Shown here piece by piece: positions 7,943 through 36,199 of a stretch of DNA of 38,563 nucleotides. The number at the start of each line of letters is the position of its first letter. Positions within the stretch are counted from its first letter, which is position 1. The DNA lies in the NCBI GenBank assembly GCA_026394555.1, contig JAPKXZ010000023.1:1-38563 (forward strand). The letters run 5' to 3'. The stretch is from Methanothrix sp. (lineage in GTDB: Archaea > Halobacteriota > Methanosarcinia > Methanotrichales > Methanotrichaceae). The position numbers were made by a program, and so were the translations under genes. Under the pieces are notes generated by a model. The model saw only the letters and a list, made by a program, of their open reading frames with translations. It was not told where the DNA came from and searched no databases.

Positions 7943-8605
7943 ATGAAAATTGCGCTCGTTGGCGGAACCGGCGATATCGGCACGGGATTTGCCGTGCGCT
8001 GGGGGCAAAAGCATGAGATCATCATCGGCTCACGAAATGTTGATAAAGCCAGGGAGAGCGCAGCCGCTGTATTGCAACTCTTGGAAGGCGTAGGTAATGT
8101 GCAGGGCACGGACAACGCCAGTGCCGTTGCTGGGGCTGATGTGGTCGTGCTGTGCGTGCCCTATGAGCATCTGGCTTCTGTTACAACCGGTCTGTTAGAC
8201 TCCTACAAGAGCCAGCTCGTCATCTCACCCGTGGTGCCCATGATTTACAACGGCAAGTTTTTTCAGTACCAACCCCCCGCCGAGGGAAGCGCAGCCCTGC
8301 AGGCAAGGATGCTGCTACCAAAAGGCGTTAGAGTGGTCTCTGCCTTTCATACCATATGCGCCGCAGCTTTGCAAGATATTAAGAGGGTGATGAAGGCGGA
8401 TATTTTTATCTGTGGCGATGATGCAGAGGCGATAAAGATCACTGTAGAGCTTGCCGGTGAGATAAAGAGCCTGCGACCACTGAACGCGGGTCCTTTGGCC
8501 GTCTCCTCCATGGTAGAGAGCTTGACGCCCTTTCTGCTAAATGTAGCCCGCAAGAACAAGATCAAAGATGCGGGAATTACAGTCGTTTCCGAGCGAAAAA
8601 TTTAA
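7943..8605 (+). CDS. npdG: F420H2:NADP+ oxidoreductase (NADPH-dependent F420 reductase)
   Basis: This enzyme passes hydride between reduced F420 and NADP+, supplying NADPH for biosynthesis in methanogens. The 220-residue length is typical. The dinucleotide-binding site is IALVGGTGDIGTG (residues 3-15), followed by the NADP phosphate-site stretch IIIGSRNVDKA, VVVLCVPYEH, and the VVSAFHTICAAAL segment seen in the Fno family. No ribosome binding site is visible, and an AT-rich TATA-like stretch (GTAAAATAATAG, about 7912-7923) lies about 25 bases before the ATG, suggesting a leaderless transcript. Its end overlaps the convergent TraB-family gene by 4 bases. Confidence 0.93.
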   Translation: MKIALVGGTGDIGTGFAVRWGQKHEIIIGSRNVDKARESAAAVLQLLEGVGNVQGTDNASAVAGADVVVLCVPYEHLASVTTGLLDSYKSQLVISPVVPMIYNGKFFQYQPPAEGSAALQARMLLPKGVRVVSAFHTICAAALQDIKRVMKADIFICGDDAEAIKITVELAGEIKSLRPLNAGPLAVSSMVESLTPFLLNVARKNKIKDAGITVVSERKI

Positions 8606-9888
8606 AAAATTAAAGAATAGCCATTTTTTATCATCTCCCAGATCATATCTGCAGAAAGGTTCAGTCCCAGCCAATGCCAGATGAGATAGACGCCAACGAA
8701 CATGCCGAGCATGGCACCCACGTTTGAAAGTGCCGCCACTAAGATGACCTTGAAGAGGCGGTTTTGCATCATCTGACTAAAGTTGTCTGCAGCAGCCAGC
8801 GTTTTCAGGTCGGACACAGTCGGCTTGAGCTTCCAGGCCTCCACCATTCCGGCAAACCAGCCCGCGGCCACAAAGGGATTGAGGGTCGTCATCCAGGCTA
8901 CCATGAGCGCCGTCAGGGCGGAGAGTGGATGGCCTCTGGCCAGGACCACCCCTAAAGCCGACAGCCCTCCGGTTACTACGAACCAGATGACACAGGCCTG
9001 AAGAATGATCTCGCTGGACTTTGCCGTGATCAGCACCAGACCAATGGTGACCAGGATAAGCAGGCTCACCACTACCCCAAATATCTTGACAAAGGTGATC
9101 TTTTTGCCGGGCTTCTCATTCAAGCCATCCAGGGCAGGAATATTCTCGGGATGTTCGAGATGCTTGAGAATGCCCTCTCTGTGGCCCGCCCCCACCACGG
9201 CCAGCACCCGGCCCTGCTTGGAGAGCAAGTGCAGATTACGAGCCAGGTAGGCGTCGCGCTCATCCACCAGCACGTTCGCCGCCCCGGGAGAGATCTTCCT
9301 AAACTCCGATATCATCTGGGAGACAATATCGGCCTGAGTGATGCTGTCGATATCAATTTCTTCTTCATCGCCCCAGCCAAGAGCCGCAGGTATCAGGGAT
9401 CCGACAAGCCTGATCTTATCAATAAATCCCATAGCCGACCAGAAGCGCTGAATGGTAATGCCAATGTCCCTATCGACCAGTGCCACCCGCGCGCCCGCGA
9501 TCTTAGCAGCTTCTATGGCCGCCAGCATCTCCGAGCCGGGTTTGACTCCCAGCTCCTCGCCGATCTTTCTCTGAATATAGGCTAAAAACAACTGCACCAG
9601 GAAGAAGAAGAGTTTTCCGCCACTTAAAAGCTCACTGATCTTGATCTCCTTCTCTACCTCCTGGCCGATAAGAGCCCGATAGCGAGCAGGACACAGCTCT
9701 ACAGCCACGATATCGGGGCACGTCTCCTCTATTTTGCTGATTACTTCCTGGACGCTTTTTTCTGAGACATGGGCCGTTCCTACTATTATGATCTCATGGG
9801 ACTCGCTGCCTGCGGGCATCTCCCCCGGCTCCACCAGCCGGCAAGAAGAAGCGTCGGCTTCTTTCATCGTTTCCGTCGTATTCTCCAA
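8602..9888 (-). CDS. TraB/PrgY-family membrane protein
   Basis: A 428-residue TraB-family protein. The soluble domain has the conserved GTAHVS (residues 37-42), AVELCPARY, and GAGHREGI motifs that define the TraB/TIKI-like fold. The C-terminal third (about 275-428) carries several hydrophobic membrane segments. Bacterial PrgY/TraB acts on peptide pheromones; the archaeal function is unknown, though a metal-dependent peptidase-like activity has been proposed for the fold. The start is TTG 9888, chosen because GAGGTAATCA precedes it at proper spacing; ATG 9867 is the alternative. It follows the site-2 protease gene by 12 bases in the same direction. Confidence 0.9.
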   Translation of the reverse strand: MENTTETMKEADASSCRLVEPGEMPAGSESHEIIIVGTAHVSEKSVQEVISKIEETCPDIVAVELCPARYRALIGQEVEKEIKISELLSGGKLFFFLVQLFLAYIQRKIGEELGVKPGSEMLAAIEAAKIAGARVALVDRDIGITIQRFWSAMGFIDKIRLVGSLIPAALGWGDEEEIDIDSITQADIVSQMISEFRKISPGAANVLVDERDAYLARNLHLLSKQGRVLAVVGAGHREGILKHLEHPENIPALDGLNEKPGKKITFVKIFGVVVSLLILVTIGLVLITAKSSEIILQACVIWFVVTGGLSALGVVLARGHPLSALTALMVAWMTTLNPFVAAGWFAGMVEAWKLKPTVSDLKTLAAADNFSQMMQNRLFKVILVAALSNVGAMLGMFVGVYLIWHWLGLNLSADMIWEMIKNGYSLIF

Positions 9889-9900
9889 ATTGATTACCTC

Positions 9901-11001
9901 TCACTGCACGAGCTCAATGGCCCTGACCAGGTCCTCCCTGGAGACGATGCCCACCAATCGGCCCTCATCGATCACAGGCAGTCGGCGAATTTGCATTTCA
10001 TTCATCATCTTCATGGCAGTCGATGCCTCCTCCTCAGGGCCGATCAGATATAACTTTCTTGCCATCACCTGATCTACGCGAGTATGGGCCCTCTCCGCTT
10101 CTGGAACCCTCTGTAGATCGGTCAAGGTGATAATTCCCACCAGGGCTTCATCGGACATTACCGGATAGCCTCTATGTTTTTCCCGGAACATCAGCTCTTT
10201 TAGCTCTTCAAGCGTCATTTCCAAAGCGATGCTGTGAACCTTTGCGGACATTATGTCTCGCACCGATATTCCCTCCAGGCTGACGCTTATTTTCGTAGCC
10301 TTCTCCTCTTCAGATGCACCCACATAAACGAAGAATGCCACAAAAAGGAGCATGAAATTTAAGGTGGACAGGCCCAGCAGAAACATGAGAGTCGCGAAGA
10401 CCTTTCCGATATCCGCAGCTAGCCGGGTAGCTTTTACATAAGGCATGCGGGTGGCAAACCAGGCCCGCAAGAGGCGGCCTCCATCCATGGGAAAAGCGGG
10501 GAGGAGATTGAAGGCCATGAGGATGATATTCATGATGCCTAAAGTCCAGAGCATGATGGCCAGAGCATTGCCCGCACCACCAAAAGCAGCAGCCGGTCCG
10601 GCCAAGTAAACCGAGATCAATCCCAGCACGCCGCTCACAGCCGGTCCGGCAAAGGCCATCTGCAGCTCCAGGCGGGGATTTCTGGGGATCTCCTCCATGG
10701 AAGCCACTCCGCCAAAGAAGTAGAGAGTTATGCTCTTTATGCCAATGCCGTTCTTGTGGGCGATATATGAATGCCCCAGCTCATGCAGGGCCACGCAGGC
10801 GAAGAGCACTACGGCAAAGAGCAGAGAATAGATCAGTCGCAGCTGTGCCGGCTCAATGCCGCCGAAACCATAAGTCTTTCCGTAGACGGTCTGGCTGAAA
10901 GAGGCAAAAGCCCAGGCAACATAGAGGATGACCAACAGAAATGTCCAGTGTAGCCGCACTGGTATGTCCATGATCTTTCCAAGCTCCAGAGAAGAGTTCA
11001 T
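9901..11001 (-). CDS. Site-2 protease family (M50) metalloprotease with CBS domains
   Basis: An intramembrane zinc metalloprotease. Zinc-binding HELGH is at residues 73-77 and the third ligand region FPMDGGRLLRA at about 170-180, each in a hydrophobic segment; about six membrane segments span 1-230. Two CBS domains follow (about 245-366), with the conserved ends GYPVMSDEALVGIITLTDL and RRLPVIDEGRLVGIVSREDL, suggesting control by an adenine nucleotide. Such proteins cut transmembrane substrates such as anti-sigma factors in bacteria; the archaeal substrate is unknown. Co-directional neighbours are TraB downstream and, after a 114-base gap, the aldolase operon upstream. No ribosome binding site precedes the ATG. 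Confidence 0.92.
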   Translation of the reverse strand: MNSSLELGKIMDIPVRLHWTFLLVILYVAWAFASFSQTVYGKTYGFGGIEPAQLRLIYSLLFAVVLFACVALHELGHSYIAHKNGIGIKSITLYFFGGVASMEEIPRNPRLELQMAFAGPAVSGVLGLISVYLAGPAAAFGGAGNALAIMLWTLGIMNIILMAFNLLPAFPMDGGRLLRAWFATRMPYVKATRLAADIGKVFATLMFLLGLSTLNFMLLFVAFFVYVGASEEEKATKISVSLEGISVRDIMSAKVHSIALEMTLEELKELMFREKHRGYPVMSDEALVGIITLTDLQRVPEAERAHTRVDQVMARKLYLIGPEEEASTAMKMMNEMQIRRLPVIDEGRLVGIVSREDLVRAIELVQ

Positions 11002-11115: not shown

Positions 11116-11703
11116 TTATTGAAGTGACGGTAAAGATATAAATTTATCCCTTGAATAGGCTTTTACAAGATACCTTACTTGAGCGCTATGCTCGGCCATA
11201 CAGGCTGCAGTATAAGCATCAGAGAGACTATTGCCGGCGGCAAATACGCCATGGCCGCGAGCAATACATGCCTTATGAGTTTGCAGGGCAGAAGATGCAG
11301 CCATGGCCAGCTCATTTGTGCCGATTTGGCCCTCAACAATGGGCATTGTTCCTAAAAAGACCATGCCCTCGCTATCCAGCGGCTCTACTGTCTTTCGCTC
11401 CAATAGAGATAGAGCCACTGCATAAGGAGAATGGGTGTGAATGATGGCCATGTTTATGGTGCTCTGGTAGATGGCCCGGTGAACACAGGTCTCGCTGCTG
11501 GCAATCTTGTCCTGATCGCAGGGACAGCTTAAATCAACCTCCACCACCAATTCTTCCTCCAGCTCGTCGAGCATGCTGCCGGTGCAGGTTATAAAGATCC
11601 GACCTTCCCCGAGCAGGCTGATATTTCCGAACCGGGAGCTGGTAAGCCCGGAAAATACCAATTTCTTGCCGAACCGGGCGATCTCCTGCCAGGCTAAAGA
11701 CAT
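11116..11703 (-). CDS. Class II aldolase (fuculose-1-phosphate aldolase family)
   Basis: A 195-residue zinc-dependent class II aldolase/adducin-family protein. Visible active-site residues are Glu71 (ETCVH), the zinc ligands His89 and His91 (HTHSPYAVALS) and His151 (ARGHGVFA), in the order of L-fuculose-1-phosphate aldolase. The start is ATG 11703, just 7 bases after the subtilase stop and preceded by GGAGAAGGAG; a longer open frame to 11781 runs inside the subtilase gene and is rejected. Archaeal relatives make or use lactaldehyde and DHAP; the exact substrate is not predictable. It is the last gene of the exported-protein unit and its only clear cytoplasmic member. Confidence 0.85.
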   Translation of the reverse strand: MSLAWQEIARFGKKLVFSGLTSSRFGNISLLGEGRIFITCTGSMLDELEEELVVEVDLSCPCDQDKIASSETCVHRAIYQSTINMAIIHTHSPYAVALSLLERKTVEPLDSEGMVFLGTMPIVEGQIGTNELAMAASSALQTHKACIARGHGVFAAGNSLSDAYTAACMAEHSAQVRYLVKAYSRDKFISLPSLQ

Positions 11704-11710
11704 ACCAGCT

Positions 11711-13600
11711 TTACTCCTTCTCCAATAGACGGAAAGGGACCACCTTATCGTCCACCTCCCCGAATTTTCCCAGCAAGTCAACCTTTACCTGGTAGTCGCC
11801 AGGAGTCCAAAAGCTCGTCTCCCAGCGGGCAGAGAAGATGCCGTTGCCGTCGAAGTCATCCATGGGTATCTCCATATTTCGGTCCGGCCCTATGATGTTG
11901 GCGTTTATGACCCTGATATCGCCTAAAGCCTGCGCCTCGATCATGACCGGCTCGCCTACTGAAGCCTCCTTCCGGTTAAGCTTAATCTCCTCGAGAACAG
12001 GGGGCGACAGCCCCGACCGAGTCGCACTAATGCTTTGCAGGGCACCGGTCAGATTGAGGGCCCCATAGCCATAAACATTATCCGACCCGGACGGGCCCAG
12101 ATCGTCCGCCGTCTTGAGCAGCACCCTCTTTACATCAGCCGGGGCAAGATCAGGCTTTGCTTCCAGCAACAGCGCCACTGCCCCGGAGACTTGAGGAACG
12201 GCCATAGATGTGCCGCTTAATGCGCTCTTGCCGCTCTTCGATCCAGCCAGGGCGGAGACTACATCCACACCCAGCGTGACCAGATCGGGCTTGGTGTCGC
12301 CTTTGGCCGTCGGCCCGCGCGAGGATAGTTCGAAGATAGTGCCAGAGCGGTCCACAGCGCCCACGGTTATCACGTTCTCGGCATCGCCGGGAATGACAAT
12401 GGATGAAGCGGCAGGACCGGAGTTTCCTGCTGCCACACACATAACCAGCCCCTTTTCCACCATTTTGTTACAGGCTTCATCCAGGAGAGACGTGCCGTCT
12501 GAAGGGCTCTCGCCACCCACGGAAAAGGATACGACCCTAATTCCGTAACGCTCTTTATTCTCCAGGCACCAGTCCAGTGCATTGAGGGCATCAGATAGAT
12601 AGCATGCACCATCTCGGTCCATGACCTTTATCACTACCAGCTTTGCCCCCGGCGCCACGCCCGTGCCCGCCTCTCCGGCGACTAGGCTGGCACAATGGGT
12701 GCCGTGTCCGTTGTCATCGTAGGAATCAGTTTGGTTGTTCACGAAATCCTTGAAGGCCACAATTTTGCCTGCCAGGGTCTTGTGATCACGATCCGCACCA
12801 GTGTCAATGAGGGCCACAGTCACGCCCTCCCCCGTGTAGCCTTTATTCATCCGGGAGTCATCAATATTCCAGGGATCATGGCGTGAAGTGGAGAGAGAAG
12901 ACAGAACGCTAGCCTCGTCGGGCAGCGCCAAAACCTTCAGCTTCTGGTCCTTGTAGATGCCCCTAACACCATTGGTCCGGGCAATCTTCTCCAGCTTGTC
13001 GCTGGATACCGTCAAGGCGCTCCCTGGCAAGATATGGAAGCGATCCGCGGATGTAGCGAGATTGCTCAGATTGCCGTCATGAAGGACTATCACCCTCAGC
13101 TCCTTCCCTCCTTGCTTTTCCAAACTGTCCTCGATTCCATTGCTGTTGAGATCATTGGGGTCGCGAATGGTAAGGGTTGCTGATTCATCCTTTGCCGCAT
13201 TGCCGGATTTATCAATGGCCACAATTGTGACCTTGTAGGCCCCGGGCGGCAGGTTGGAGCCACAGTATCCTGTGTATCTGCCATCCTGATCCAGATCCAG
13301 CATGAGGTTCATGCGACTACCGATATCGGCATAGACCATCTCTATGCTGCCGGCATCATGGACAAAAGCGTTGATCTCGCTTCGAGGAGCGCCGGTCTTC
13401 AGCGCCGAGGGATTTACACTCACTCCATAAATGACCGGAGGCATACCGTCATCCGCATTTGGCTTGAAGTAGCTGTCATATTCCTTTTCAAACCAGATGC
13501 TGGCCTTGTTGTTATCGAGCGCATTTTGCATGGGGAAAGCAGCCGCACTGCTAAGCAGACCAGCCAATAAAATAAAATAGGCAAATGAGCTGGAGTTCAC
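11711..13600 (-). CDS. Exported subtilisin-like serine protease (S8)
   Basis: A 629-residue secreted subtilase. A signal peptide covers about residues 1-22. The catalytic triad is Asp266 (VALIDTGAD), His299 (DDNGHGTHCASLVAG) and Ser465 (SGTSMAVPQVSGA), with the oxyanion Asn393 in AAGNSGP. Ig-like domains flank the protease: residues about 55-146 and 535-627; a propeptide-like region lies between. The start is GTG 13600, with GGAG 7 bases upstream; both lie in a small inverted repeat. It follows a tandem-rhodanese gene by 12 bases and precedes the aldolase by 7, so all three are one transcript. It probably processes surface proteins; the substrate is unknown. Confidence 0.92.
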   Translation of the reverse strand: MNSSSFAYFILLAGLLSSAAAFPMQNALDNNKASIWFEKEYDSYFKPNADDGMPPVIYGVSVNPSALKTGAPRSEINAFVHDAGSIEMVYADIGSRMNLMLDLDQDGRYTGYCGSNLPPGAYKVTIVAIDKSGNAAKDESATLTIRDPNDLNSNGIEDSLEKQGGKELRVIVLHDGNLSNLATSADRFHILPGSALTVSSDKLEKIARTNGVRGIYKDQKLKVLALPDEASVLSSLSTSRHDPWNIDDSRMNKGYTGEGVTVALIDTGADRDHKTLAGKIVAFKDFVNNQTDSYDDNGHGTHCASLVAGEAGTGVAPGAKLVVIKVMDRDGACYLSDALNALDWCLENKERYGIRVVSFSVGGESPSDGTSLLDEACNKMVEKGLVMCVAAGNSGPAASSIVIPGDAENVITVGAVDRSGTIFELSSRGPTAKGDTKPDLVTLGVDVVSALAGSKSGKSALSGTSMAVPQVSGAVALLLEAKPDLAPADVKRVLLKTADDLGPSGSDNVYGYGALNLTGALQSISATRSGLSPPVLEEIKLNRKEASVGEPVMIEAQALGDIRVINANIIGPDRNMEIPMDDFDGNGIFSARWETSFWTPGDYQVKVDLLGKFGEVDDKVVPFRLLEKE

Positions 13601-13612: not shown

Positions 13613-15190
13613 TTATTCATTTCCTAGATTCTTATATTTACTGGTGCCGACAACCTCAATTTGCATGGCATCCGGGAAGGTCTTTGTGATCTCCCCTAAG
13701 GTGGCTACAATATCGACGGTGTAGACGCCGGTTGCCACATTAGCATTCCAAATGCCGGCAAACTCGTCTCCGTCAGATTTGATGCGTTTCATTACAACCC
13801 GGGAGACAGTATCACCCGATGGGCTCAATACCTGAGCCGATACAGTGAAACCTTTTTCCGCCGCGCTTTTTTGTGCCTGAGATGTGGAGCCGATCTTCAC
13901 CACGCCACCGGTACTACTTAGGTCGGCATATCCTTGCGGCGAGCCAAATCCACAGGTAGCGCATCCTTTGATGGTCAGAATAGTTTCGTTGCCGCTCTGG
14001 TTAACGTTTTTTGGCAGGCTGGCAGAGCTTATGTTCTTCCCTTCGAAGAGCGCCGTTATCTGAACAACATCACCTATCTTGACTGGATTGGGCCTGGCAT
14101 AAGCCTTCTGCAAGGCAATGTCCAATTTAGGCGAATTGGCCTGCCAATCCTGCCAGGAGTAAATTCTGGCATCATAGTCCAGTAGATTCAGGGCGAGCCA
14201 GATCATGGAAGCCTTGACGCCGGTATTGGTGTAGACTACAACGGGCTTATTTTTATCCAGATACGAGAATAGATCACTCAGCTCTTCTTTACCCTTGATC
14301 CTTTTGCCGTCCAGGACTCGATCATAAGGAATATTTACGCTTCCTGGTATCGATCCGGCTTTATATTCCTGGGCCGTTCTGGCATCTATGATCTGGGGCG
14401 TGCCGCTATGCACGAACTCATAAGTGGCCAGAAGATCGGACTTTATGGAAGGAGTATAGGTCTGAGAAGATAAAGACGCAGGATGTGTTACCGTGGGCCG
14501 CAGAGCTGCCACCCAGTCGTCGATGCCTCCGTCCAGCAGTTTGACATTCTTATGGCCCAGATACAACATTATCCAGTAAACATAAGTTGCAGCCGATGGC
14601 CCTCCGCCGCAAGGCTGGCATTCACCGTAAATGAGGACCGCATCATCCTCTGATATGCCTGCCTCTCCCAAAACCGCCGCCATCTCGGACACGGGCTTAA
14701 GAACGCCACCCGGACCAAGAAATTTGGTATAAGGGATGCTTATAGCTCCGGGAATAAGCTCGGTGGGATCTGGGCTGATATCAAGAATTATACCTGAACC
14801 ATTGGCGCTCTCCAGGGGCACCAGAACAGAGGCAAAGCCATCGCTTCTCTTTGCATTTATGTGGCTGCTGGGCAAAGCGCTGGAGACATTGCTGTCTGTT
14901 GGGCTTTGTGCCCCTGTTACTGATGCTAATGCCTTGATTTTCTCTGCTTGTAATGAAGGATTGTTCTCCCGGTTATACCGGGGATTGACCAGACCACCTG
15001 TGCTGGACATCACCTCTGTTGTTGCATTCTCTTTGCCCAGGAACACCGCCCACTCGTTATTCAGCACGTCCTGTTGAGTGGAAGACGATCCGCCTTTGCA
15101 GAGGGAGCATTCTCCATTGACGCTGGATACAGCACCTGCAAATATCGCCATCATTAGCAGGATGCACATGGCAATTCTTGATATCTTCAT
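13613..15190 (-). CDS. Exported tandem-rhodanese protein with C-terminal Ig-like domain
   Basis: A 525-residue exported protein with a signal peptide (residues 1-26) and two rhodanese folds (about 115-235 and 245-350). The N-domain loop reads GECQPCGGG (Cys191, Cys194). The C-domain loop, where thiosulfate sulfurtransferases carry the catalytic Cys, is VVVYTNTGVKAS with no Cys. Other Cys pairs are CSLC (28-31), just after the signal cleavage site, and GCATCGFG (410-413). An Ig-like domain ends the protein. The start is ATG 15190 (MKISRIAMC); a longer frame to 15298 overlaps the upstream gene and looks spurious. The cysteine pairs suggest thiol or persulfide chemistry outside the membrane; the reaction is inference. 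Confidence 0.83.
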   Translation of the reverse strand: MKISRIAMCILLMMAIFAGAVSSVNGECSLCKGGSSSTQQDVLNNEWAVFLGKENATTEVMSSTGGLVNPRYNRENNPSLQAEKIKALASVTGAQSPTDSNVSSALPSSHINAKRSDGFASVLVPLESANGSGIILDISPDPTELIPGAISIPYTKFLGPGGVLKPVSEMAAVLGEAGISEDDAVLIYGECQPCGGGPSAATYVYWIMLYLGHKNVKLLDGGIDDWVAALRPTVTHPASLSSQTYTPSIKSDLLATYEFVHSGTPQIIDARTAQEYKAGSIPGSVNIPYDRVLDGKRIKGKEELSDLFSYLDKNKPVVVYTNTGVKASMIWLALNLLDYDARIYSWQDWQANSPKLDIALQKAYARPNPVKIGDVVQITALFEGKNISSASLPKNVNQSGNETILTIKGCATCGFGSPQGYADLSSTGGVVKIGSTSQAQKSAAEKGFTVSAQVLSPSGDTVSRVVMKRIKSDGDEFAGIWNANVATGVYTVDIVATLGEITKTFPDAMQIEVVGTSKYKNLGNE

Positions 15191-15212
15191 GGCCTTTGCC
15201 CTCGAATACGAT

Positions 15213-16346
15213 TCAAGCCGTCGCATTAGTCGCATCTGCCTTGCCAGTCGCCGCCTGGTTGTACAGATAATTCTCATAGGAGTACAGCCGGGCATCATAT
15301 CCCTGGAGAGTCAGGGCAAACCAGACCACAGATCCCTTCAAGCCGGTATTGGTGTAGACTACCACAGGCTGTTTCTTGTCAAGGAAGGCAAAGACTCGGG
15401 CAAGCTTGGTTTCATCCCTGATTTTGCTATTGATGATAACATTGTCGTAGGGAATGTTGATTGCACCGGGAATGGAGTTTGCGCCGAACTCCTGCATGGT
15501 TCTTGCATCCACGATCTGGGCCGAGCCGCTTTTGACATAGTCATAATCGGCTGAAAAATTCCTATTGATTTGTGGGGTGTAGGTCTTGGCAGGCAAGAAT
15601 GCCGTCTTCGTGGCCGTCGGCTTTCCGGCTAGAGCCCAATCCGTGACCCTTCCATCCAATACCCTGACATTCTCCTGGCCCAGGGACCTCATGATCCAGT
15701 AGACAAAGGTCGCGGGCGCGGGTCCTCCTCCACATGGCATGCATTCGCCGTAGATGACCACCGGGTCGCCCCGGGAAATTCCGGCATCTCCCAACATCTT
15801 TGCCAGCTCGGCCTCTGATCGCACATTTGTGCCATTGAGAAAATTCGTATAAGGAATGGCAATAGATCCCGTGATGTGTTCTGTGGCGTTCTCGCTGATG
15901 TCCAGCAATACCTGGGAGCCAGTGACCTCGTCAATAGGAACGAGCAATCCCTTGGCATTTGCGCTGCGCACAATGGATGTGTTCTCCTCCGCGATTTTGC
16001 GCGGCTCGATCTTCTTTGCCAGGCTTTTTGTGGTGTTGTTCACCGGGACATTTTCCTGCAGCGAATTGCTCTCTTCGCTAGCACTGGTTTTATTGAAGCC
16101 GGCGAGGGGCTGTTTCCAGATTCCCACCCGGTTCTTCTGAGCCGTGCTCAGGCCCGGCATGACTTCCGTCTTTTGCGCATCGATGTTGCCTATCTGGTCC
16201 AGCGCTTTTTCGCCAGACCAGCCTGAATCGCCCTTGCAAGCATCGCAATAGGCTTCTCCCCCGTGGGCTGCATTTGCCAGCATCAATAGCGTCAAGATGC
16301 CCACACCCACTAAACAGGATCCCAAACATGATTTGAATGTAGTCAT
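15213..16346 (-). CDS. Exported tandem-rhodanese protein (paralogue)
   Basis: A 377-residue paralogue of the downstream gene at 13613-15190, 22 bases away. It has a signal peptide (1-29), then CDAC (34-37) near the mature N-terminus, and two rhodanese folds (about 130-245 and 250-360). The first active-site loop is GECMPCGGG (Cys202, Cys205); the second is VVVYTNTGLKGS without cysteine. The pair is alike in the stretches ARVEQ-free core, such as SIPGAINIPYD versus SIPGSVNIPYD. It lacks the C-terminal Ig-like domain of its paralogue. GGGGAG precedes the ATG at 16346, and an AT-rich stretch in the 45-base gap upstream could be an internal promoter. This is a tandem duplication with divergence. 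Confidence 0.83.
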   Translation of the reverse strand: MTTFKSCLGSCLVGVGILTLLMLANAAHGGEAYCDACKGDSGWSGEKALDQIGNIDAQKTEVMPGLSTAQKNRVGIWKQPLAGFNKTSASEESNSLQENVPVNNTTKSLAKKIEPRKIAEENTSIVRSANAKGLLVPIDEVTGSQVLLDISENATEHITGSIAIPYTNFLNGTNVRSEAELAKMLGDAGISRGDPVVIYGECMPCGGGPAPATFVYWIMRSLGQENVRVLDGRVTDWALAGKPTATKTAFLPAKTYTPQINRNFSADYDYVKSGSAQIVDARTMQEFGANSIPGAINIPYDNVIINSKIRDETKLARVFAFLDKKQPVVVYTNTGLKGSVVWFALTLQGYDARLYSYENYLYNQAATGKADATNATA

Positions 16347-16391: not shown

Positions 16392-17909
16392 TTATGAAGA
16401 GGTAAAGCCGCGTCTTGCGGTAACCTCGACCTCGCCCAAAGTCTCTTGCAACTCATATCCTCGCGCATCTTTTGCAGAGAGGACAATATCGTAACTTCCC
16501 GGTTCCAGCAAAGCCGTAGAGAAGTCTCCCTGATAGAAATCTCCGGACAAAACCAGCCGACAGTAGCCTTGCGCTTCCAATCCATTCTGATAAGCGCGAG
16601 CGGTTACCTGCAGGAGATCGTACTTGGACTTCAGCTTTGCCTTAATGGCGACGGAGTCACCCACTCTTGCTTTGGCAGGAGTCAGCTCCTTGGCGAGGAT
16701 GGAAATCTGCTTGACCTGAACGCCCATAATGGGATACTGGTCTTTTCCAGTCTCGCTTATCCTGTAAGGCACATCCCCAAAGCCGTCCTTGCCTGGGGCC
16801 TTTTGCCCGGGTCCTTGCATCGCATCCTGCCCCTGGTAGTCGCTCCAGAGGTTTCCGCCCTGGGGAAATTTTGCGTTCCAGCGGTTTATTCCTCGATCGT
16901 CGGCTTGAATGAAATTGTCAGCTATGCGGTTGCCGTAGATTTCATTTTGGCTCGACTCCAGGAATATTCCCGTCCGGCTGTCGGAGATATTGTTATAAAT
17001 GATGGTATTGCCATCCGAGCGGCTCTGTATCTGTAATCCATAGCGTCCGTTGCCTCGTATCACGTTTCCGCTAATGGTGTTTTGACCCGAATCTTCCATG
17101 AGGGTCAGTCCGGCAACCTTGTTATCCTCCATGGTGTTGTTGATGACGAGATTATCCGTGCAGTTGATGCGCAGATCCAGACCGGAGTTGGTATTCCTGG
17201 ACAGATCGTTCTTTTCGATCCGGTTTTCAGAGCAATCGGTGAACATGTAAAGGCCGTACATATTTCCATGCAGCACGTTTCCTCTAATGGTATTATTGCG
17301 GCAGGAAGGAAAGAGATTGATGCCGTAAGCGCCATTGCCGTAGGCCACATTGTTCGTGATGAGGTTGTCGTTGGAGTTGGATAGGTATATTCCATACCAG
17401 CCCTCTCCCACTATGCCGTTAAAGCTGGCATTGTTTCCTGTGATGGTATTCCCATCGGAAAAGATGAGAGCAATGCCGGGCTGAGTACAGTAGATTACGG
17501 TGTTGTTGGAGACAATACAGCCCGACACACTGTTGAGCTTTATTCCATAAAAACCGTCTCTGACCGTAAAGCCGCTTATGGAAACGCCGTTCGCATCTAT
17601 GTTTACACAGGCGTCTCTATTTCCGGCCCGGATTACCGCACCATTGCCCACCAGATCCAGGCTCTTTTCTATGGTTATTTTATCGTAGACTCCCCTAGCT
17701 ACCTGCAGGGTATCGCCGGGGGAGGCAGCATCTATAGCAGCTTGCAGATTCGAGCTTACCGGTATCGTAGCACCGTTCGCGAAGGAAGAGATCAGCAAGG
17801 CAGCTGACAAGATGCAAAAAGCTATCGTTCTCAAGCAACCCACCGACGCCTGAACGGTTGTGAGGTTAATAAAGCTTACGTAGCGGATTTTCCCATGCAG
17901 ATCACTCAT
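16392..17909 (-). CDS. Exported right-handed beta-helix (NosD/CASH-type) protein with Ig-like tail
   Basis: A 505-residue exported protein. The hydrophobic signal lies at about residues 28-46 (TIAFCILSAALLISSFANG) after an unusually long N-terminal stretch, so translation may start later than ATG 17909. Residues 50-400 are a CASH/NosD beta-helix: LQAAIDAASPGDTLQVARG, then Asn-rich coils like NNVAYGNGAYGINLFPSC. An Ig-like domain occupies about 400-500 (ARVGDSVAIKAKLK ... EPGSYDIVLSAKDARGY). It is the first gene of the exported-protein unit and 45 bases upstream of the first rhodanese gene. It is related to the plus-strand beta-helix protein at 4986-6497 in fold. A binding or structural surface role is likely. 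Confidence 0.83.
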   Translation of the reverse strand: MSDLHGKIRYVSFINLTTVQASVGCLRTIAFCILSAALLISSFANGATIPVSSNLQAAIDAASPGDTLQVARGVYDKITIEKSLDLVGNGAVIRAGNRDACVNIDANGVSISGFTVRDGFYGIKLNSVSGCIVSNNTVIYCTQPGIALIFSDGNTITGNNASFNGIVGEGWYGIYLSNSNDNLITNNVAYGNGAYGINLFPSCRNNTIRGNVLHGNMYGLYMFTDCSENRIEKNDLSRNTNSGLDLRINCTDNLVINNTMEDNKVAGLTLMEDSGQNTISGNVIRGNGRYGLQIQSRSDGNTIIYNNISDSRTGIFLESSQNEIYGNRIADNFIQADDRGINRWNAKFPQGGNLWSDYQGQDAMQGPGQKAPGKDGFGDVPYRISETGKDQYPIMGVQVKQISILAKELTPAKARVGDSVAIKAKLKSKYDLLQVTARAYQNGLEAQGYCRLVLSGDFYQGDFSTALLEPGSYDIVLSAKDARGYELQETLGEVEVTARRGFTSS

Positions 17910-18282: not shown

Positions 18283-18837
18283 ATGCATCAGTTTATTTTG
18301 GAGGTCCAGGAAGATGATTACAATTGGAAATGGGTAATAATAGCACTTCATAATTCGACCCAAGCATTTATGGTTCTGGCTTTGCAGGGTACTTCGCCAT
18401 TGAATGTTATTAAAGATCCCCAAAAGTCATTTGATGCAATACAAAATGGTACAGATTATCCAGAAGATAAATTGCTAAATTTTTTGAGTTTATACCGAGA
18501 CATTAAATCTCAAGAAAAGATGAAAAAGAGCATTGATAGCCGGAATTATTCAGGTTCAAATGAAATGGACGATGCAATCAGAACACTAAATGAGCTTCGG
18601 AATAAATTTATTCATTTCATACCATGCGGATGGAGCATAGAGTTAATTATGCTCCCCAGGATATGCAAGCAAGTCTTGTCCGTTATAGAGTTCTTAATCT
18701 TGGAATCAGGGAACATCAGATTTTACGACAATGATAATATTGAAAAAGAACAATTATCAGATTTGGTTGAAAGAATCGCAACCGAACTTGATAAGGTAGA
18801 ACGCAAGTATGCAATAAGTTATGGCCCATACTCTTAG
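18283..18837 (+). CDS. Hypothetical protein, possibly starting upstream at a non-standard codon
   Basis: I do not recognise this 184-residue protein. It is helical, without a signal or membrane segment; features include WVIIALHNSTQAFMVLALQG and RTLNELRNKFIHFIPCGW. The latter pattern (R-N-x-F-I-H) recalls HEPN-type helices, so a HEPN-like fold is conceivable. The sequence is clearly more AT-rich than its neighbours. Upstream of ATG 18283 the same frame stays open back to 18205 with coding-like sequence (EERHYLTPWFRTNERKEAIK) and no ATG, GTG or TTG. A strong AAGGAGGAG lies at 18191-18199, 5 bases before an ATT at 18205, which may be the true start. Confidence 0.6.
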   Translation: MHQFILEVQEDDYNWKWVIIALHNSTQAFMVLALQGTSPLNVIKDPQKSFDAIQNGTDYPEDKLLNFLSLYRDIKSQEKMKKSIDSRNYSGSNEMDDAIRTLNELRNKFIHFIPCGWSIELIMLPRICKQVLSVIEFLILESGNIRFYDNDNIEKEQLSDLVERIATELDKVERKYAISYGPYS

Positions 18838-18989
18838 CAGTTAGCGGACAAAAATCGATATGCAAATACCATCGACTATGTCGCAGCGAAGATGATCGGT
18901 AATTAGGTCTTGGCGGAGGATATCCACAGGGTACTTATTCCAAAAGAGACAAAAAAATCCCTATGCAATGCAAGAGACCCCTGGCTGCT

Positions 18990-19307
18990 ATGAAGACAAC
19001 GAAATCCCATCCCAGGCCCGCTCTGGAGGATCTAAAGCAGTTGCTTCGCGATAACCTGACGGACTTGCAGAGGGAATATCGCGTCGGTTCCCTTTGGCTC
19101 TTCGGATCCTACGTCCGGGGCGAGCAGCACATGCATAGCGATCTTGATATTTTAGTGGAGTGCGAGGAAGTGCCCACCCTTCCCAAGTTCATCTCCCTTG
19201 AGCGAAAGCTACGCGAGGTTACCGGCATCAATGTTGATCTTGTATCAATTCGCGCATTAGAAGGCGATATTGGAGAGCGCATTCTTCGGGAGAAGGTAGC
19301 ACTGTGA
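18990..19307 (+). CDS. MNT-type minimal nucleotidyltransferase
   Basis: A small nucleotidyltransferase-fold protein of the MntA type, the partner of HEPN proteins in toxin-antitoxin pairs, where it neutralises the HEPN RNase, in studied cases by AMPylation. The active site is visible: WLFGSYVRGEQHMHSDLDILVE, that is GSxxRG followed by DLD as metal ligands. The C-terminus NVDLVSIRALEGDIGERILRE is typical. The start is ATG 18990 or 18963; neither has a ribosome binding site. Its stop overlaps the GTG start of the truncated HEPN gene by 4 bases, so the original operon order is kept. Confidence 0.85.
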   Translation: MKTTKSHPRPALEDLKQLLRDNLTDLQREYRVGSLWLFGSYVRGEQHMHSDLDILVECEEVPTLPKFISLERKLREVTGINVDLVSIRALEGDIGERILREKVAL

Positions 19308-27232: not shown

Positions 27233-28441
27233 TCAAGCGTAAGCCTTCTCGCCGTGTTGGGAGATATCAAGGCCAACGTATTCCTCTTCCTCTGTGACCC
27301 GCAGACCCATGACGCGGTCAACTATCTTTGCCAGGATGAGCGTCATCACGAAGGCATAGGTCACAGACGCTCCGGCGGCCATTATCTGCACCGCGAACTG
27401 ATGATAGTTGCCGTAGATCAGGCCGGTGTAGCTGTTGACTGAGGCGGTGGCGAATATGCCCGTTGCGATCGCGCCCCACAGTCCGCCCATGCCGTGCACC
27501 GCCCAGGCATCGCAGCTCTCATCCAGGCCGCGACCGACGCGAAAGAGCAGGGCCATGTAGCAGATCACGCCGGAGACGGCGCCAATGATCAGGGCTCCCG
27601 TCACATCAACGTAGCCTGCGGCCGGGGTTATGGCCACCAGACCGGCTATGCCGCCGCTCACCATTCCTAAGGCACTTGGCTTTCCTTTCAGCCAGCTGGC
27701 GGCAAGCCAGGTAAGCGCTCCCGCAGCCGCAGAGGTGTTGGTGACCAGCAGGGCTGAGGCGGCGAGGCCGTTGGCGGCCAGGGCGGAGCCGGCGTTGAAG
27801 CCGAACCAGCCGAACCAGAGCAGGCCCGCTCCGATCATGGCCATGGGAATGTTATGCGGCTCCATGACGTAGGCTCCGTAGCCCATCCTCTTGCCTATAA
27901 CCAGGGCTATGGCCAGAGCGGAGAAGCCGGAGCTGATGTGCACCACCGTTCCCCCGGCAAAGTCGAGAGCCCCCATCTGGGCCATCCAGCCACCCGCCCA
28001 AACCCAGTGAGCCAGCGGATCATAGACCAGAGTGGTCCAGAGGAGAGCCAGCACGATGAAGGAGCTGAGCTTGACCCTTTCCGCCACGGCGGAGGTGAGG
28101 ATGGCTAATGTAACAGCCGCGAAGACCAGCTGGAAGGCCACGTAGACGAGATGCGGAATGTTGGTGGCCAGGGGGGCCTCACCCAGTCCCACGCCGTTTA
28201 ATGCAAAGTAGTTCAGGCCGCCGATGATTCCCGATATATCCGAGCCGAAGGATAGGCTGTAGCCGAACAGCACCCACTGTACGCTGGCTATTGCGAAAGC
28301 CAAGAAGGACAGGCCTATCATCGAGACGACGGTCTTGCTTCGCACCAGGCCGCCATAGAACAAACCGACGCCCGGCGTCATGAGCATGACCATGGCTGTT
28401 GACACCAAAACCCATGCTGTGTCTCCACTGTTAATTTCCAA
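27233..28441 (-). CDS. amtB: Ammonium transporter
   Basis: A 402-residue Amt/Rh-family channel that passes ammonium into the cell. There are 11 hydrophobic segments and the conserved features: FYGGLVRSK at the N-terminus, the first pore histidine in [13 protein letters not shown], and the second in [15 protein letters not shown]. The cytoplasmic C-terminus ends with [24 protein letters not shown], the conserved tail that transmits GlnK binding. The start is TTG 28441, supported by GGGTGATG four bases upstream. An AT-rich stretch AAATTAAATA about 40 bases upstream is a plausible TATA box. It is cotranscribed with glnK. Confidence 0.96.
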
Positions 28442-28477
28442 CTACATCACCCTTAAACAATTGTAAAGTCAAACCTA

Positions 28478-28489
28478 TTTAATTTTTGT
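28478..28489 (-). promoter_or_regulatory. Likely amtB TATA box
   Basis: On the minus strand the stretch AAAATTAAATAG precedes the amtB TTG by about 40 bases, giving a transcription start shortly before the GGTGAT ribosome binding site. No GGAA-N6-TTCC operator, as used by NrpR in other methanogens, is visible by eye in the 150 bases upstream. Confidence 0.4.
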
Positions 28490-28609
28490 ATCAACTTCAA
28501 GACCAGTGCAGAGAAATCCGTTAGCACATCGCTAGAAGAGCCCCTCTCGTGGACTTTAAAAAGGTATTTAATATAAATTAGGAATTGCTATGATGAAATC
28601 ATATTCATT

Positions 28610-29007
28610 CATAACCGGAAAAGGTCAGCACTTTAAACCGTCTCGCATCCAGCTCCTTTGTCCGAAAGCGCCTTCAACATCGCATTTCAGGTTGAGATAC
28701 CAATCCCGCGGCAAGGGTGATGGTGGGCAGATTCGCGACCGTGCCTGTGACGGTGCACTGTGCCGAAGATGTTCGTTGACGGAGGCGGCTAGTCGCTACG
28801 TCATCATCACTTGCTTCTTGCGTCCGTACTTAAGCCCCAGCTAAGGACCTCCTCTGCGCCTACGTGCTGGGCAATCTCTCCCCGTTCCAGAAGGCAGGCC
28901 TGATCTCCCATGCAGGCCACATCTCTCAGGTCATGGGTGACGATGATGCAGGGAACAGCGCAGGCGCGAATTGTATCACTCAATTTGCTCCAGCTTGCAG
29001 TCTTCTC
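28610..29007 (-). pseudogene. Decayed molybdate-type ABC transporter ATPase (ModC-like)
   Basis: Directly after the nifN stop, and in the same frame, 29007-28810 reads as the C-terminal part of an ABC ATPase: LSDTIRACAVPCIIVTHDLR carries the H-loop VTHD, followed by CLLERGEIAQHVGAEEVL. It stops at 28809-28807. Further on, pieces in shifting frames (TVTGTVANLPTITLAAGLVS, then ALSDKGAGCETV) resemble the TOBE domains that follow in ModC. The Walker A, signature and Walker B regions are missing. This is the tail of a gene whose front was deleted. The ModC assignment rests on TOBE-like pieces and on the nif context. Confidence 0.6.
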
Positions 29008-30321
29008 TCATGCCGATCCTCTCTCTCTGCCTTCAAGCAGGGCGTTGGCCATTTCCTCCACCAAATACATCGAGCCCTCGTATCCCAGGAGCAACTGGTG
29101 GGAGGCTCCATAGCGATCATGATTGGGCAATCCCACCCGGAGGAGCGGTATCTTCTCTTTTCTGGCAATCCCTCTTCCAGTGAAGGGGCCCACCATCAGC
29201 TCGATATCCCGGCTCGATGCTTCCTCTGCGATCTGTGAGAAATCGGCCCCCATCATAACCTTGGATCCAGGTGCAAGCTCTTTTGCTTTTTCAGCAAATG
29301 CGGGATTAGCGGCACCCGAGGCCACGATCTGCGGCCTCATGCCCAGCTCCGTCATGATGCGGGTTATGCCCAAAACCATCTCCGTGTCTCCGTAGACGGC
29401 GGTCTTAACATCAGCTAGAATCTTATGAGCATCGACCATGGTATCCAGCAATCGGCCCCTCTCCTGTTCATAGCTCTCGGGCATGGAAATCCCGGTCAGC
29501 TCCTCCAGATTTGCAGCCAGACGATCGGTGAATTCCTGGCCCAGGGGTAGGGGTAGAGCAATATGGGGAACTTCGAACTCTCTTTCCAGATAGTCTCCTG
29601 CTCCAGGCTCTTGCACCCACCCGCCTATGGTCAGTGTCGCTTTGGAGTTGGCCGTATCCCGGATGTCATCAAGAGGCGTTCCCCCCGCTGGGATGAGAGG
29701 CGGGTCCTGGCAGAGCGGTGCATCTAAGGTCTCGGATATGTCCGGCATCAGGATATACCCCAGGCCCCAGTCATCCAGGAGCCGCCGCAGGTAACGAACA
29801 TCCGCCGGTGAAATTATCGCTCCCACCAGTACGTTGATCCGTCCGCTTTGCTTTGATTTCCTGGCCATGGTCTGAACCAGGCCTTTCAGAGCGACTCGAT
29901 ATCCTACTTCATGAGACGCGGCGTAGCTGGGCGTCGAGACGGAGATGATGGTCACATCTTTGGCCAGGGGCTCCTCCGCCTGGAACTCGCGCACGATTTG
30001 GGGAACATCATCTCCGATGGTCTCAGCCAGGCAAGTGGTAGCGATGCCTATCACCTTGGGGTGGTAGCCATTTATAACATTCTTCAGCCCCTGCTTGAGG
30101 TTGGCGGCCCCACCGTAGACCGCGCCCTTCTCGCTCAGAGCTGAGGAGGCGATGTCCACCGGCTCGCGGAAGTGATGCGCAAGGTAGAGTCGCATGTAGG
30201 TGCTACATCCTTGAGAGCCGTGGAAGAGTGGCATACAGCCCTCGATTCCCCGGAAGACCAGTACGCTGCCCATGGGCATGCACATGGAGCAGGGGTTAAC
30301 TGTGGCAAGGCTCTTGGACAT
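29008..30321 (-). CDS. nifN: Nitrogenase cofactor-assembly protein NifN
   Basis: NifN is the beta-like subunit of the NifEN scaffold, on which the NifB product is converted to FeMo-cofactor. The 437-residue protein resembles NifK but is distinct: NPCSMCMPMGSVLVFRGI and HGSQGCSTYMRLYLAHHFREP at the N-terminus, TTCLAETIGDDVP in the middle, and the natural end LLEGRERGSA. The start is ATG 30321, with GGGAGTGA 6 bases upstream; the GTG at 30330 lies in that ribosome binding site. Its 5' end overlaps nifE by 26 bases. No nifX or nifB follows. Confidence 0.93.
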   Translation of the reverse strand: MSKSLATVNPCSMCMPMGSVLVFRGIEGCMPLFHGSQGCSTYMRLYLAHHFREPVDIASSALSEKGAVYGGAANLKQGLKNVINGYHPKVIGIATTCLAETIGDDVPQIVREFQAEEPLAKDVTIISVSTPSYAASHEVGYRVALKGLVQTMARKSKQSGRINVLVGAIISPADVRYLRRLLDDWGLGYILMPDISETLDAPLCQDPPLIPAGGTPLDDIRDTANSKATLTIGGWVQEPGAGDYLEREFEVPHIALPLPLGQEFTDRLAANLEELTGISMPESYEQERGRLLDTMVDAHKILADVKTAVYGDTEMVLGITRIMTELGMRPQIVASGAANPAFAEKAKELAPGSKVMMGADFSQIAEEASSRDIELMVGPFTGRGIARKEKIPLLRVGLPNHDRYGASHQLLLGYEGSMYLVEEMANALLEGRERGSA

Positions 30322-31705
30322 AATTTTCACTCCCGGTAGTAATGCTTAGTTGCGATGCGCTGCCTATCCGGCTGGTCCTTTTAACGGGAAGCTGCCAAAC
30401 CGGACTGTTGATGGTGATGCTGACCTCCCGTGCGAAATTGACCATTCCAACGTAACCTTCGAAGTTCATGGTCCGATCGTGATTGAAGTCACAGAAAGCG
30501 ATTCCCATTTTATAGGCCAGAAAACGCTCTTTCACGCCCGCCACCAATAGGTCCGCTTTCTGCTTGAATAGAAGCTCCTTCAGCTCCAGGGGATTGGCAT
30601 CGTCGATGATCACTGTGCCGTCCTTTACGATACATGCGATCTTCTGATAGTCGTCTCTATCACCAGTCTGCGTTCCTATTATCACCACCTCCATTCCCAT
30701 CTCCTGGAAAGCCCGCACTAGAGAGACGGCCTTGGCTGCACCGCCCATGTAAATGGCAGCCTTCTTTCCGGCAACTTTCGCCCGATAAGCTTCGATCTGG
30801 GGCATCACCTGCGCCGTTTCACGAAGGATTAGCTCTTCTGCCTTCCGCTTTCGTTCTGGCGAGGCGAAAAACTCCGCAACAGTACTTAGAGCGTTTGACA
30901 TGTCCTGCAGGCCGAAGAAGCTTATTCGTCGATATGGAATGCCATATTTTTCTTCCATCTTCTTGGCAAGATAGGTCATGGAGCCGCTGCACTGCACCAG
31001 ATTAAGCTGGGCTGTATGAGCCCTTTGAATCTCGGCCACGCGAGCGTCGCCGGTGAGCGCAGCTACCACCTCGATTCCCATCTCCTGGAAGAAGGGCTTA
31101 ACGAACCAGAGGTCGCCCGCCACATTATATTCACCCAGCAGGTTGATGGAAGGGTGGCGTGGTGCATAATTCCGGGTTCCAATCAGCTCATTTAGAGCGT
31201 TGCAGGCTGCTTTGTAGCCCTCGTTCTTGTTTCCTCGAAATCCCTCCGACTTTACGGGCAGGATGGGAATGCAAAGCTCCTCGCTCGCCCTTCGGCAGAT
31301 AGACTGCAAATCATCTCCGATGATGCCCACAATGCAGGTGGAATAGACAAAGATGGCCGGCGGATGATACCTGTCCGCCAGCTCCCGCAGGTCTTCCGCC
31401 AGCTTCTTCTCGCCACCAAAGACCACATCCAGTTCCTTCATGTCTGTAGAGAAGCTATTGCGGTAGAGATCTGGGCCGGAGGAGGTACTGCCCCGGATGT
31501 CCCAGGTGTAGCTGGCGCACCCTATGGGCCCATGCACCAGATGCAGAGCATCGGTGATGGGATTGAGCACCACTCTGGCTCCGGAGTAGACGCAGGCTCT
31601 CTGGCTCACGGCACCGGCCAGGCTCTCATTATTGCAGGCCAGGGGCAGGCCGTCGCCTTTCTGCTGGATGTGCCCCTCTCTGCCTTCGAAGATCTTGACA
31701 ATCAT
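30296..31705 (-). CDS. nifE: Nitrogenase cofactor-assembly protein NifE
   Basis: NifE is the alpha-like subunit of the NifEN scaffold. The 469-residue protein has the NifD-like cysteines in RACVYSGARVVLNPITDALHLVHGPIGCASYTWDIRG and VYSTCIVGIIGDD, and LVQCSGSMTYLAKKMEEKYGIPY where NifD holds the FeMo-cofactor cysteine, as usual for NifE. It starts at ATG 31705, two bases after the nifK stop, and overlaps nifN at its end, consistent with a fixed NifE:NifN ratio. Confidence 0.94.
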   Translation of the reverse strand: MIVKIFEGREGHIQQKGDGLPLACNNESLAGAVSQRACVYSGARVVLNPITDALHLVHGPIGCASYTWDIRGSTSSGPDLYRNSFSTDMKELDVVFGGEKKLAEDLRELADRYHPPAIFVYSTCIVGIIGDDLQSICRRASEELCIPILPVKSEGFRGNKNEGYKAACNALNELIGTRNYAPRHPSINLLGEYNVAGDLWFVKPFFQEMGIEVVAALTGDARVAEIQRAHTAQLNLVQCSGSMTYLAKKMEEKYGIPYRRISFFGLQDMSNALSTVAEFFASPERKRKAEELILRETAQVMPQIEAYRAKVAGKKAAIYMGGAAKAVSLVRAFQEMGMEVVIIGTQTGDRDDYQKIACIVKDGTVIIDDANPLELKELLFKQKADLLVAGVKERFLAYKMGIAFCDFNHDRTMNFEGYVGMVNFAREVSITINSPVWQLPVKRTSRIGSASQLSITTGSENYVQEPCHS

Positions 31706-31707
31706 TT

Positions 31708-33066
31708 TCAGAGCACCATCTCAAAATGCGTATCATCAGCGTCCCGATCTCGCCTTTCCAGGAAGGTGTTGCCGATCATCTCCACCAGTCGAGCCGCTCC
31801 CGCATAACCGATGACCGGGAAGTAGTGCAAATTGGCGCGATCGGTGATGGGGAATCCCACCCGCACCAGAGGGATGTCCTCTGCCCTTGCGATCAACTTG
31901 CCGAAGCTGTTGCCGATGAGCATATCTACGGGATGGTTCTTGATCTTCTGGTGTAAGAGGAAGGTGTCTCCGATAATGGCCTCACAGCTAGGGGCAACAT
32001 TATGCACCTCTTCTGCGAATTTTTTGTCAGGCGTGCCGGTCAAAGCAAAGACAGGGTCCATACCCATCTCCACAGCCAGACTGACCAGACCGATGACTGT
32101 GTCCGGATCTCCGAAGACGGCCAGGCTCTTGCCATGGAAGTGGGGATGAGCATCGGTCATCATGTCCACCAGCCGGCCCCGTTCGTACTCGATATCCTGT
32201 GGAATTGGGACGCCCATGAGGCTGGAGACGTTCATCACAAAGGCATCGGTATTGCGGATGCCTATGGGCATGGGACCGATGACCGCGGGTATGCAAAACT
32301 TGCCTTTCAAGATCACAGCTCCCGCGGCACCGGCCGTTCTTCCCAGGGCAATGGTGGCCCGGGAGTTGCCGGCATCAATCAGATCCGGGATCGTCGTTCC
32401 GCCCGGCGGATACAGGCCACCTGACTCTGGCGAGAGGGGCGCATCGAAGACATCGGTGGTATCGGGGAATACGATATGTGGAACGCCCATGACCGCCAGA
32501 ATTCTCTTGATCTCACGGATATCTCCCGGGTCCACGAAGCCGGGAATGATGTTCAATTTGCCGTTGGGTTTGCTCTTGCGGGCAAAGCTCTGGGCGATGG
32601 CTTTCACGGCATTGTCATATCCGGTGATGTGCGAACCTACGTAGCTGGGAGTATTGGCTATGACCACGCGCACATGGGAATCGAAGAACACCTCTCCCTT
32701 GATCTCCTCCATGAAACTGTGCACATCGTCGCCTATGGTCTCAGAGGAGCATGTGGTGTTGATGGCCAACACATCGGGGTGGTAGACGTTGATGACGTTG
32801 TCCACGGCCTCCTTGAGGTTGTTTCTGCCGCCGAAGACCACGGAGTCCTCGGTGAAGGAGGAGGTTGCCGCCAGCGTGGGCTCACGGTAGTGGCGGGCCA
32901 GCATCATGCGCAGGTATGATGAGCAGCCCTGCGAACCGTGAGTTATGGGCATGCAGTTATGGATGCCTTTATAGGCCAGGATGGCTCCGATGGGCTGACA
33001 GATCTTGGCAGGGTTTATGACCAGCGTCTCGCGCTCTACCATCTGTTTAGGTGTATAGTCAAGCAT
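31708..33066 (-). CDS. nifK: Nitrogenase MoFe protein beta subunit
   Basis: NifK pairs with NifD in dinitrogenase and shares the P-cluster at the subunit interface. Cluster ligands are seen in LVINPAKICQPIGAILAYKGIHNCMPITHGSQGCSSYLR and NTTCSSETIGDDVH. At 452 residues it lacks the N-terminal extension of proteobacterial NifK (about 520), as in clostridial and methanogen enzymes. Its ATG overlaps the nifD end by 8 bases, so synthesis of the two subunits is coupled. Confidence 0.96.
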   Translation of the reverse strand: MLDYTPKQMVERETLVINPAKICQPIGAILAYKGIHNCMPITHGSQGCSSYLRMMLARHYREPTLAATSSFTEDSVVFGGRNNLKEAVDNVINVYHPDVLAINTTCSSETIGDDVHSFMEEIKGEVFFDSHVRVVIANTPSYVGSHITGYDNAVKAIAQSFARKSKPNGKLNIIPGFVDPGDIREIKRILAVMGVPHIVFPDTTDVFDAPLSPESGGLYPPGGTTIPDLIDAGNSRATIALGRTAGAAGAVILKGKFCIPAVIGPMPIGIRNTDAFVMNVSSLMGVPIPQDIEYERGRLVDMMTDAHPHFHGKSLAVFGDPDTVIGLVSLAVEMGMDPVFALTGTPDKKFAEEVHNVAPSCEAIIGDTFLLHQKIKNHPVDMLIGNSFGKLIARAEDIPLVRVGFPITDRANLHYFPVIGYAGAARLVEMIGNTFLERRDRDADDTHFEMVL

Positions 33067-35064: not shown

Positions 35065-35066
35065 TT

Positions 35067-36199
<1,133 letters not shown>

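Follow-up and report, generated by a model that had tools for sequence, protein, structure and literature searches.

What chemistry can a pair of exported tandem rhodanese proteins perform when the C-terminal domain has lost its catalytic cysteine and a CxxC pair stands in the N-terminal domain? The question is raised by a 38,563-nt stretch of Methanothrix sp. DNA (GCA_026394555.1, contig JAPKXZ010000023.1, forward-strand positions 1 to 38,563; the whole stretch is hereafter the window), in which a first-pass annotation had picked out two adjacent genes for such proteins. Both are open reading frames on the minus strand, encoding RhoA (377 aa; 15213..16346) and RhoB (525 aa; 13613..15190), the latter with a C-terminal Ig-like beta domain in its model; for RhoB the ATG at 15190 is the likely start over the longer ORF start at 15298, because a signal peptide begins directly after that ATG. 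Pfam places two Rhodanese stretches above the cut-off in each protein (2.9e-23 and 3.9e-18), with PF00581 scores of 82.7 and 66.2 bits against a curated cut-off of 22.2, and the two rhodanese folds originally proposed for each protein are also what Foldseek and the AlphaFold models return (pLDDT above 90 across most of both rhodanese domains of RhoA). The signal-like N-termini of both proteins predict export, again as first read, and the coordinates form a tight same-strand series that bears out the placement of the tandem genes inside an operon.

The cysteines, numbered here on the full-length proteins, fall into three kinds of motif, all encoded on the minus strand. In the N-terminal domains, C202/C205 of RhoA lie in GECMPCGGG (15732..15743), placed by sequence and profile alignment, and C191/C194 of RhoB in GECQPCGGG (14609..14620), placed by conservation and loop position, while the C-terminal-domain loops of RhoA and RhoB read YTNTGLKG and YTNTGVKA without cysteine. 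A tail pair follows each signal peptide (C34/C37, CDAC, 16236..16247 in RhoA; C28/C31, CSLC, 15098..15109 in RhoB), and RhoB adds C410/C413 (GCATCGF, 13952..13963) in a flexible C-terminal insert. The CDAC segment has low model confidence and is probably disordered, and the CATC segment is modelled as disordered. These extra pairs are present as the first-pass annotation described them, but the RhoA tail is not a fixed feature: it reads CxxC at loci organised like the window (type I) and Cx6C at a second kind of locus (type II), and some type II RhoB copies lack the tail pair. The loop cysteines are kept family-wide. Both are invariant in an alignment of 45 RhoB-type proteins, at least 90% of which also keep the CATC pair, and the arrangement noticed in the window, an N-domain CxxC with no C-domain cysteine, recurs in 107 of 133 aligned tandem relatives; the remainder have both (4, all ANME-1), the C-domain cysteine alone by the CxxC rule used (14), or neither (8). 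Given these frequencies, the alignments indicate that the cysteine pattern is not due to chance. Selenocysteine was considered for matches running through TGA, TAG or TAA but is unlikely, as the stops are of mixed type and several fall at the ends of alignments, which suggests that the alignments ran on beyond the genes.

Where the CxxC sits was decided by profile-profile alignment and structural models. Against canonical C-domains, the second cysteine of the N-domain pair aligns to the canonical catalytic cysteine and GECxP appears as an insertion, so that the first cysteine lies in a five-residue insert directly preceding the catalytic position. Three comparisons, none involving manual choice, placed the second cysteine on the catalytic one: the Methanothrix and the ANME-1 N-domain were each aligned with canonical C-domains, and the Methanothrix N-domain also with ANME-1 C-domains. 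Aligning the Methanothrix C-domain with canonical C-domains put a threonine opposite the catalytic cysteine. In both AlphaFold models the strand ends at the tyrosine preceding GEC and the helix starts past GGGP (in mature-protein numbering, strand E168-171 and helix H182-193 in RhoA, strand E159-162 and helix H173-184 in RhoB), with loop confidence falling to about 78 pLDDT; by alignment and by these boundaries, the pair lies within the active-site loop. Neither outcome that the first-pass annotation had named as refuting it, a CxxC outside this loop or a lack of conservation in homologues, is therefore seen. The nearest structures found by Foldseek are thiosulfate and mercaptopyruvate sulfurtransferases, and the best matches are all rhodaneses, with no thioredoxin fold around the CxxC.

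The family is present throughout the Methanotrichaceae searched. A profile of four family members found homologues in 50 of 50 genomes and 11 of 11 genera. Close relatives sought across 84,980 species turned up at 49 loci, almost all of them carrying the name Methanothrix, Methanosaeta or Methanotrichaceae; a match in a Candidatus Methanosuratincola MAG (L063) is a probable misbinning, since its contig is 4.2 kb long and shows Methanothrix-like synteny. Among 394 genomes of the phylum, closer relatives were confined to two families (f8 and f9), the other matches scoring as canonical sulfurtransferases do (1e-20 to 1e-31). We assign f9 to ANME-1 because the McrA beside one of its family genes matches PDB 3sqg, which we take to be the ANME-1 enzyme, over its full length (1289 bits; next match 659). 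Within the class of f9, 7 of 58 genomes have matches at 1e-25, one of which scores like ordinary sulfurtransferases, and this patchy occurrence makes horizontal transfer possible.

The ANME-1 relatives keep both the N-domain CxxC and the classical C-domain cysteine, and from this it appears that the catalytic centre shifted from one domain to the other. An f8 relative (L138), read by eye, has both sites too. A quick tree, made with the loop columns left out, a root fixed by the outgroup rather than inferred and several moderate supports, joins ANME-1 (support 100) with Methanotrichaceae (88) and sets them apart from haloarchaeal sulfurtransferases (94), and five changes of cysteine state suffice on it. 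The simplest reading is that a canonical C-domain cysteine came first, that an N-domain CxxC was then gained, and that the C-domain cysteine was probably lost in Methanotrichaceae; paralogues linked to arsenic genes would have lost all loop cysteines as a further step. This would be a clear case of a catalytic site shifting between homologous domains, with an apparent intermediate surviving in ANME-1. Other cysteine arrangements were met along the way. A second ANME-1 paralogue type (L142, L155-L158) has the N-domain loop YCSSATGTQC, with one cysteine immediately after the tyrosine and another 8 residues on, plus a C-domain cysteine, and a separate paralogue in a sheath-forming genus (G046; L163:3341) keeps its C-domain cysteine (YCGTG). 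G000:C28:1163-2173 (L009), C56:7115-8131 (L010) and C2 L011:7873-8931 encode exported proteins of tandem rhodanese type that have no loop cysteine at all; they adjoin ArsR and ACR3 or ArsM genes and are pseudo-rhodaneses in arsenic operons.

Two kinds of locus carry these genes. Type I, found family-wide, comprises NosD, one to three rhodaneses, a subtilase, an aldolase, an M50 protease and TraB. In the window, where all are on the minus strand and assigned by domain searches and synteny, the operon opens with a NosD-like parallel beta-helix protein (16392..17909; Pfam NosD/Beta_helix), whose gene directly precedes a rhodanese in nearly all type I loci, and continues past RhoA and RhoB with an exported subtilase (11711..13600; Pfam Peptidase_S8, 3.8e-58), a class II aldolase (11116..11703, start set from homologues; Pfam Aldolase_II), an M50 (site-2) protease with CBS domains (9901..11001) and a TraB family membrane protein (8602..9888). 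Gaps are 45 bp between the NosD-like gene and RhoA, 22 bp between RhoA and RhoB, and 12 bp between RhoB and the subtilase, and the beta-helix and subtilase neighbours to which the first-pass annotation had drawn attention co-occur with the rhodaneses across type I loci. By our own count, CBM96 and thioredoxin-CcdA genes stand divergently upstream in about 22 type I loci, the usual arrangement for this operon. Type II loci comprise ArsR, an ArsP_1 permease, CBM96, thioredoxin-CcdA, a DGC protein and the rhodanese pair, some lacking parts. By eye, the window also holds a possible HEPN/MNT-type pair upstream of the operon (18283-19307) and a Nif-like cluster of ordinary nitrogen-fixation look, with a NifH-like gene, four NifDKEN-like genes and an AmtB-like gene (27233-36196). 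At another locus (L111:7377-12650), a solo GECMPCGGG rhodanese is followed by secreted proteins with QSN-type repeats that by eye resemble curlin repeats and that had no Pfam match.

The linked thioredoxin-CcdA importer, a Thioredoxin_3 and DsbD_TM fusion by Pfam, is the strongest clue to role. Apart from fragmented matches in a few assemblies, it is present in 50 of 50 genomes in one to three copies. Among the matches listed, 42 of 67 importers have a listed rhodanese relative no more than 6 kb away, in 36 of the 50 genomes, which is a lower bound because contigs are short; a rough estimate for random placement is about 2.5%. The link recurs in both locus types. In the window's own genome, the CBM96/thioredoxin-CcdA half of the type I locus is on a separate contig (C10; L168), out of sight of the first-pass annotation, and the type II pair on contig C28 is accompanied by a CcdA minus the thioredoxin part. 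Some type II loci have no importer, and the link is not universal, since no CcdA was recognised in the neighbourhood of the ANME-1 relatives.

A cysteine at the catalytic position of the N-domain, an extra cysteine three residues before it, loss of the C-domain cysteine and a linked importer are what is observed. The reading we prefer, at a probability of roughly 0.47, is that RhoA and RhoB together act as a dithiol/persulfide relay outside the cytoplasm, built on a rhodanese scaffold and kept reduced by thioredoxin-CcdA. The importer, whose direction of electron flow we infer from the CcdA family, would carry cytoplasmic electrons outward and reduce the loop CxxC; the loop cysteine would attack an envelope protein or a small molecule at its disulfide, persulfide or polysulfide, the partner cysteine would resolve the intermediate, and the N-terminal tail pairs and the RhoB C-terminal insert pair may shuttle between importer, active site and client. 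A persulfide on the second loop cysteine is entirely possible, judging from its place exactly at the canonical catalytic position. The first-pass annotation had favoured disulfide, persulfide or metal chemistry over classical sulfur transfer, and this stands in part: the relocated CxxC and the family-wide loss of the C-domain cysteine speak for it, whereas the contrast with classical sulfur transfer is less secure, and sequence cannot separate the three chemistries. More tentative, and to us somewhat doubtful, is the proposal of a rhodanese-fold dithiol oxidoreductase, in which a sulfurtransferase scaffold, its catalytic cysteine shifted to the other domain and a resolving cysteine added, would have turned to CxxC thiol-disulfide/persulfide exchange. 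It would be fed by thioredoxin-CcdA and act on disulfides of the envelope or the sheath in Methanotrichaceae. Methanothrix is a major methanogen living on acetate, and to our knowledge little is known of the thiol-disulfide chemistry of its envelope. The gene set suggests a previously unstudied thiol-handling system of the archaeal cell envelope, which is a candidate for controlling thiols outside the cytoplasm and may also provide an accessory factor to a disulfide-linked sheath.

The alternative that survives best, unlikely as we judge it, is a sulfane-sulfur carrier in which ordinary rhodanese persulfide chemistry has shifted to the N-domain. Polysulfide or thiosulfate would pass sulfur to the loop cysteine, and the partner cysteine with thioredoxin-CcdA would release it as sulfide, for sulfur supply or polysulfide clearance, working like SoxY reduced by SoxV/SoxW. 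The second cysteine at the canonical position and the sulfurtransferases heading the structural matches fit such a carrier, as does the report, seen as a reference title in PMC10451225, that SoxV, a CcdA orthologue, reduces the periplasmic thioredoxin SoxW in thiosulfate oxidation. Against it, the canonical C-domain cysteine is gone, the type I operon has no sulfur-metabolism genes, and the type II ArsR carries a CxC box rather than the widely separated pair of SoxR/SqrR. Sulfane-sulfur sensing by this regulator is itself unlikely, its box being CVC where SoxR/SqrR have two distant cysteines.

A further reading, which we consider improbable, is handling of soft metals or metalloids (As(III), Se, Te, Cu), with the CxxC pairs binding or reducing the metalloid extracellularly. 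The CVC box of the type II ArsR is the motif that forms the As(III) site in classical ArsR. ArsR and ArsP_1 genes precede the type II pairs, often together with a gene for a DGC protein, the paralogues without loop cysteines adjoin ACR3 or ArsM, and type II RhoB weakly resembles ExtH, a protein of selenite/tellurite operons, at 1.1e-5, short of the cut-off. The type I operon, however, which is the window's form and is spread family-wide, has no metalloid genes, and it is precisely the paralogues nearest arsenic exporters that have lost every rhodanese-loop cysteine.

A role for the pair as cofactor of the disulfide-linked proteinaceous sheath, forming, isomerising or reducing inter-subunit disulfides, is more improbable still. 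Sheath hoops of Methanosaeta and Methanospirillum are described as disulfide-joined, with unidentified accessory factors proposed (PMC6242892; for M. hungatei, PMC10593813). In genome G046, a family member with a YGECRPCGG loop lies 36 bp past two sheath-protein genes (L101:5522-9678). We infer that this genome is M. thermoacetophila from its sheath operon and the published locus order, with which it agrees (Mthe_1069, mspA; Mthe_1070, major sheath protein; Mthe_1071, rhodanese; PMC10470525). Because a rhodanese relative comes straight after the genes for the major sheath protein in M. thermoacetophila, a disulfide-linked sheath protein is a possible client of the relay. A general sheath link, the most attractive idea at first, was nevertheless rejected: MspA could be detected in just 2 of the 50 genomes and a rhodanese follows in one of these, the second (G043) having a transposase-like ORF and no rhodanese ORF at its sheath locus, and the window operon has no sheath gene. 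Solo rhodaneses at L114, L053, L054 and L064 share no sheath context, and Pfam assigned the sheath-like neighbours to no known family. Least probable, and in our view very unlikely, is a non-catalytic role in binding or structure, in which the conserved cysteines would only form disulfides. For it one may cite the scaffold's use without catalysis in the cysteine-less paralogues and the disordered segments holding the tail and C-terminal motifs. Against it, few residues are as well conserved as the loop cysteines, which stand exactly at the enzyme active site.

The fold and the partner genes of the relay are of known kinds, and in the open-licence literature searched we found no description of a CxxC active site relocated in this way within an archaeal operon that runs through a whole family. 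The best structural and sequence matches, TST, MST and SseA (for example PDB 3hwi, 1uar, 5wqj), have the tandem rhodanese fold in common with RhoA and RhoB, which differ in having a threonine for the C-domain catalytic cysteine (YTNTG in both), an N-domain CxxC, export and flexible CxxC tails; on NCBIfam PRK11493.1 they score 56.6 and 69.3 bits against a cut-off of 250. E. coli YnjE (2wlr), a further Foldseek match, is likewise a multi-rhodanese protein and is exported, but it has more domains, its cysteines are in the canonical arrangement and the operons are not alike. ExtH (NF040901) of Geobacter selenite/tellurite operons is also a rhodanese-like protein in an electron-transfer gene cluster, although there are no cytochromes here, type II RhoB reaches only 24.6 bits against the equivalog cut-off of 200, and the profile is absent among the NCBIfam matches of RhoA and RhoB. 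SoxV/SoxW with SoxY pair a CcdA-type importer with an extracytoplasmic cysteine sulfur protein, a functional analogy in which the folds are unrelated and for which no Sox genes are present here. TsoB (NF045694), a rhodanese/DsbD fusion-like selenoprotein, differs in that neither fusion nor selenocysteine was seen here (18.3 bits against a cut-off of 805), yet it too couples a rhodanese to a DsbD-type importer, which in Methanotrichaceae is a separate, neighbouring gene.
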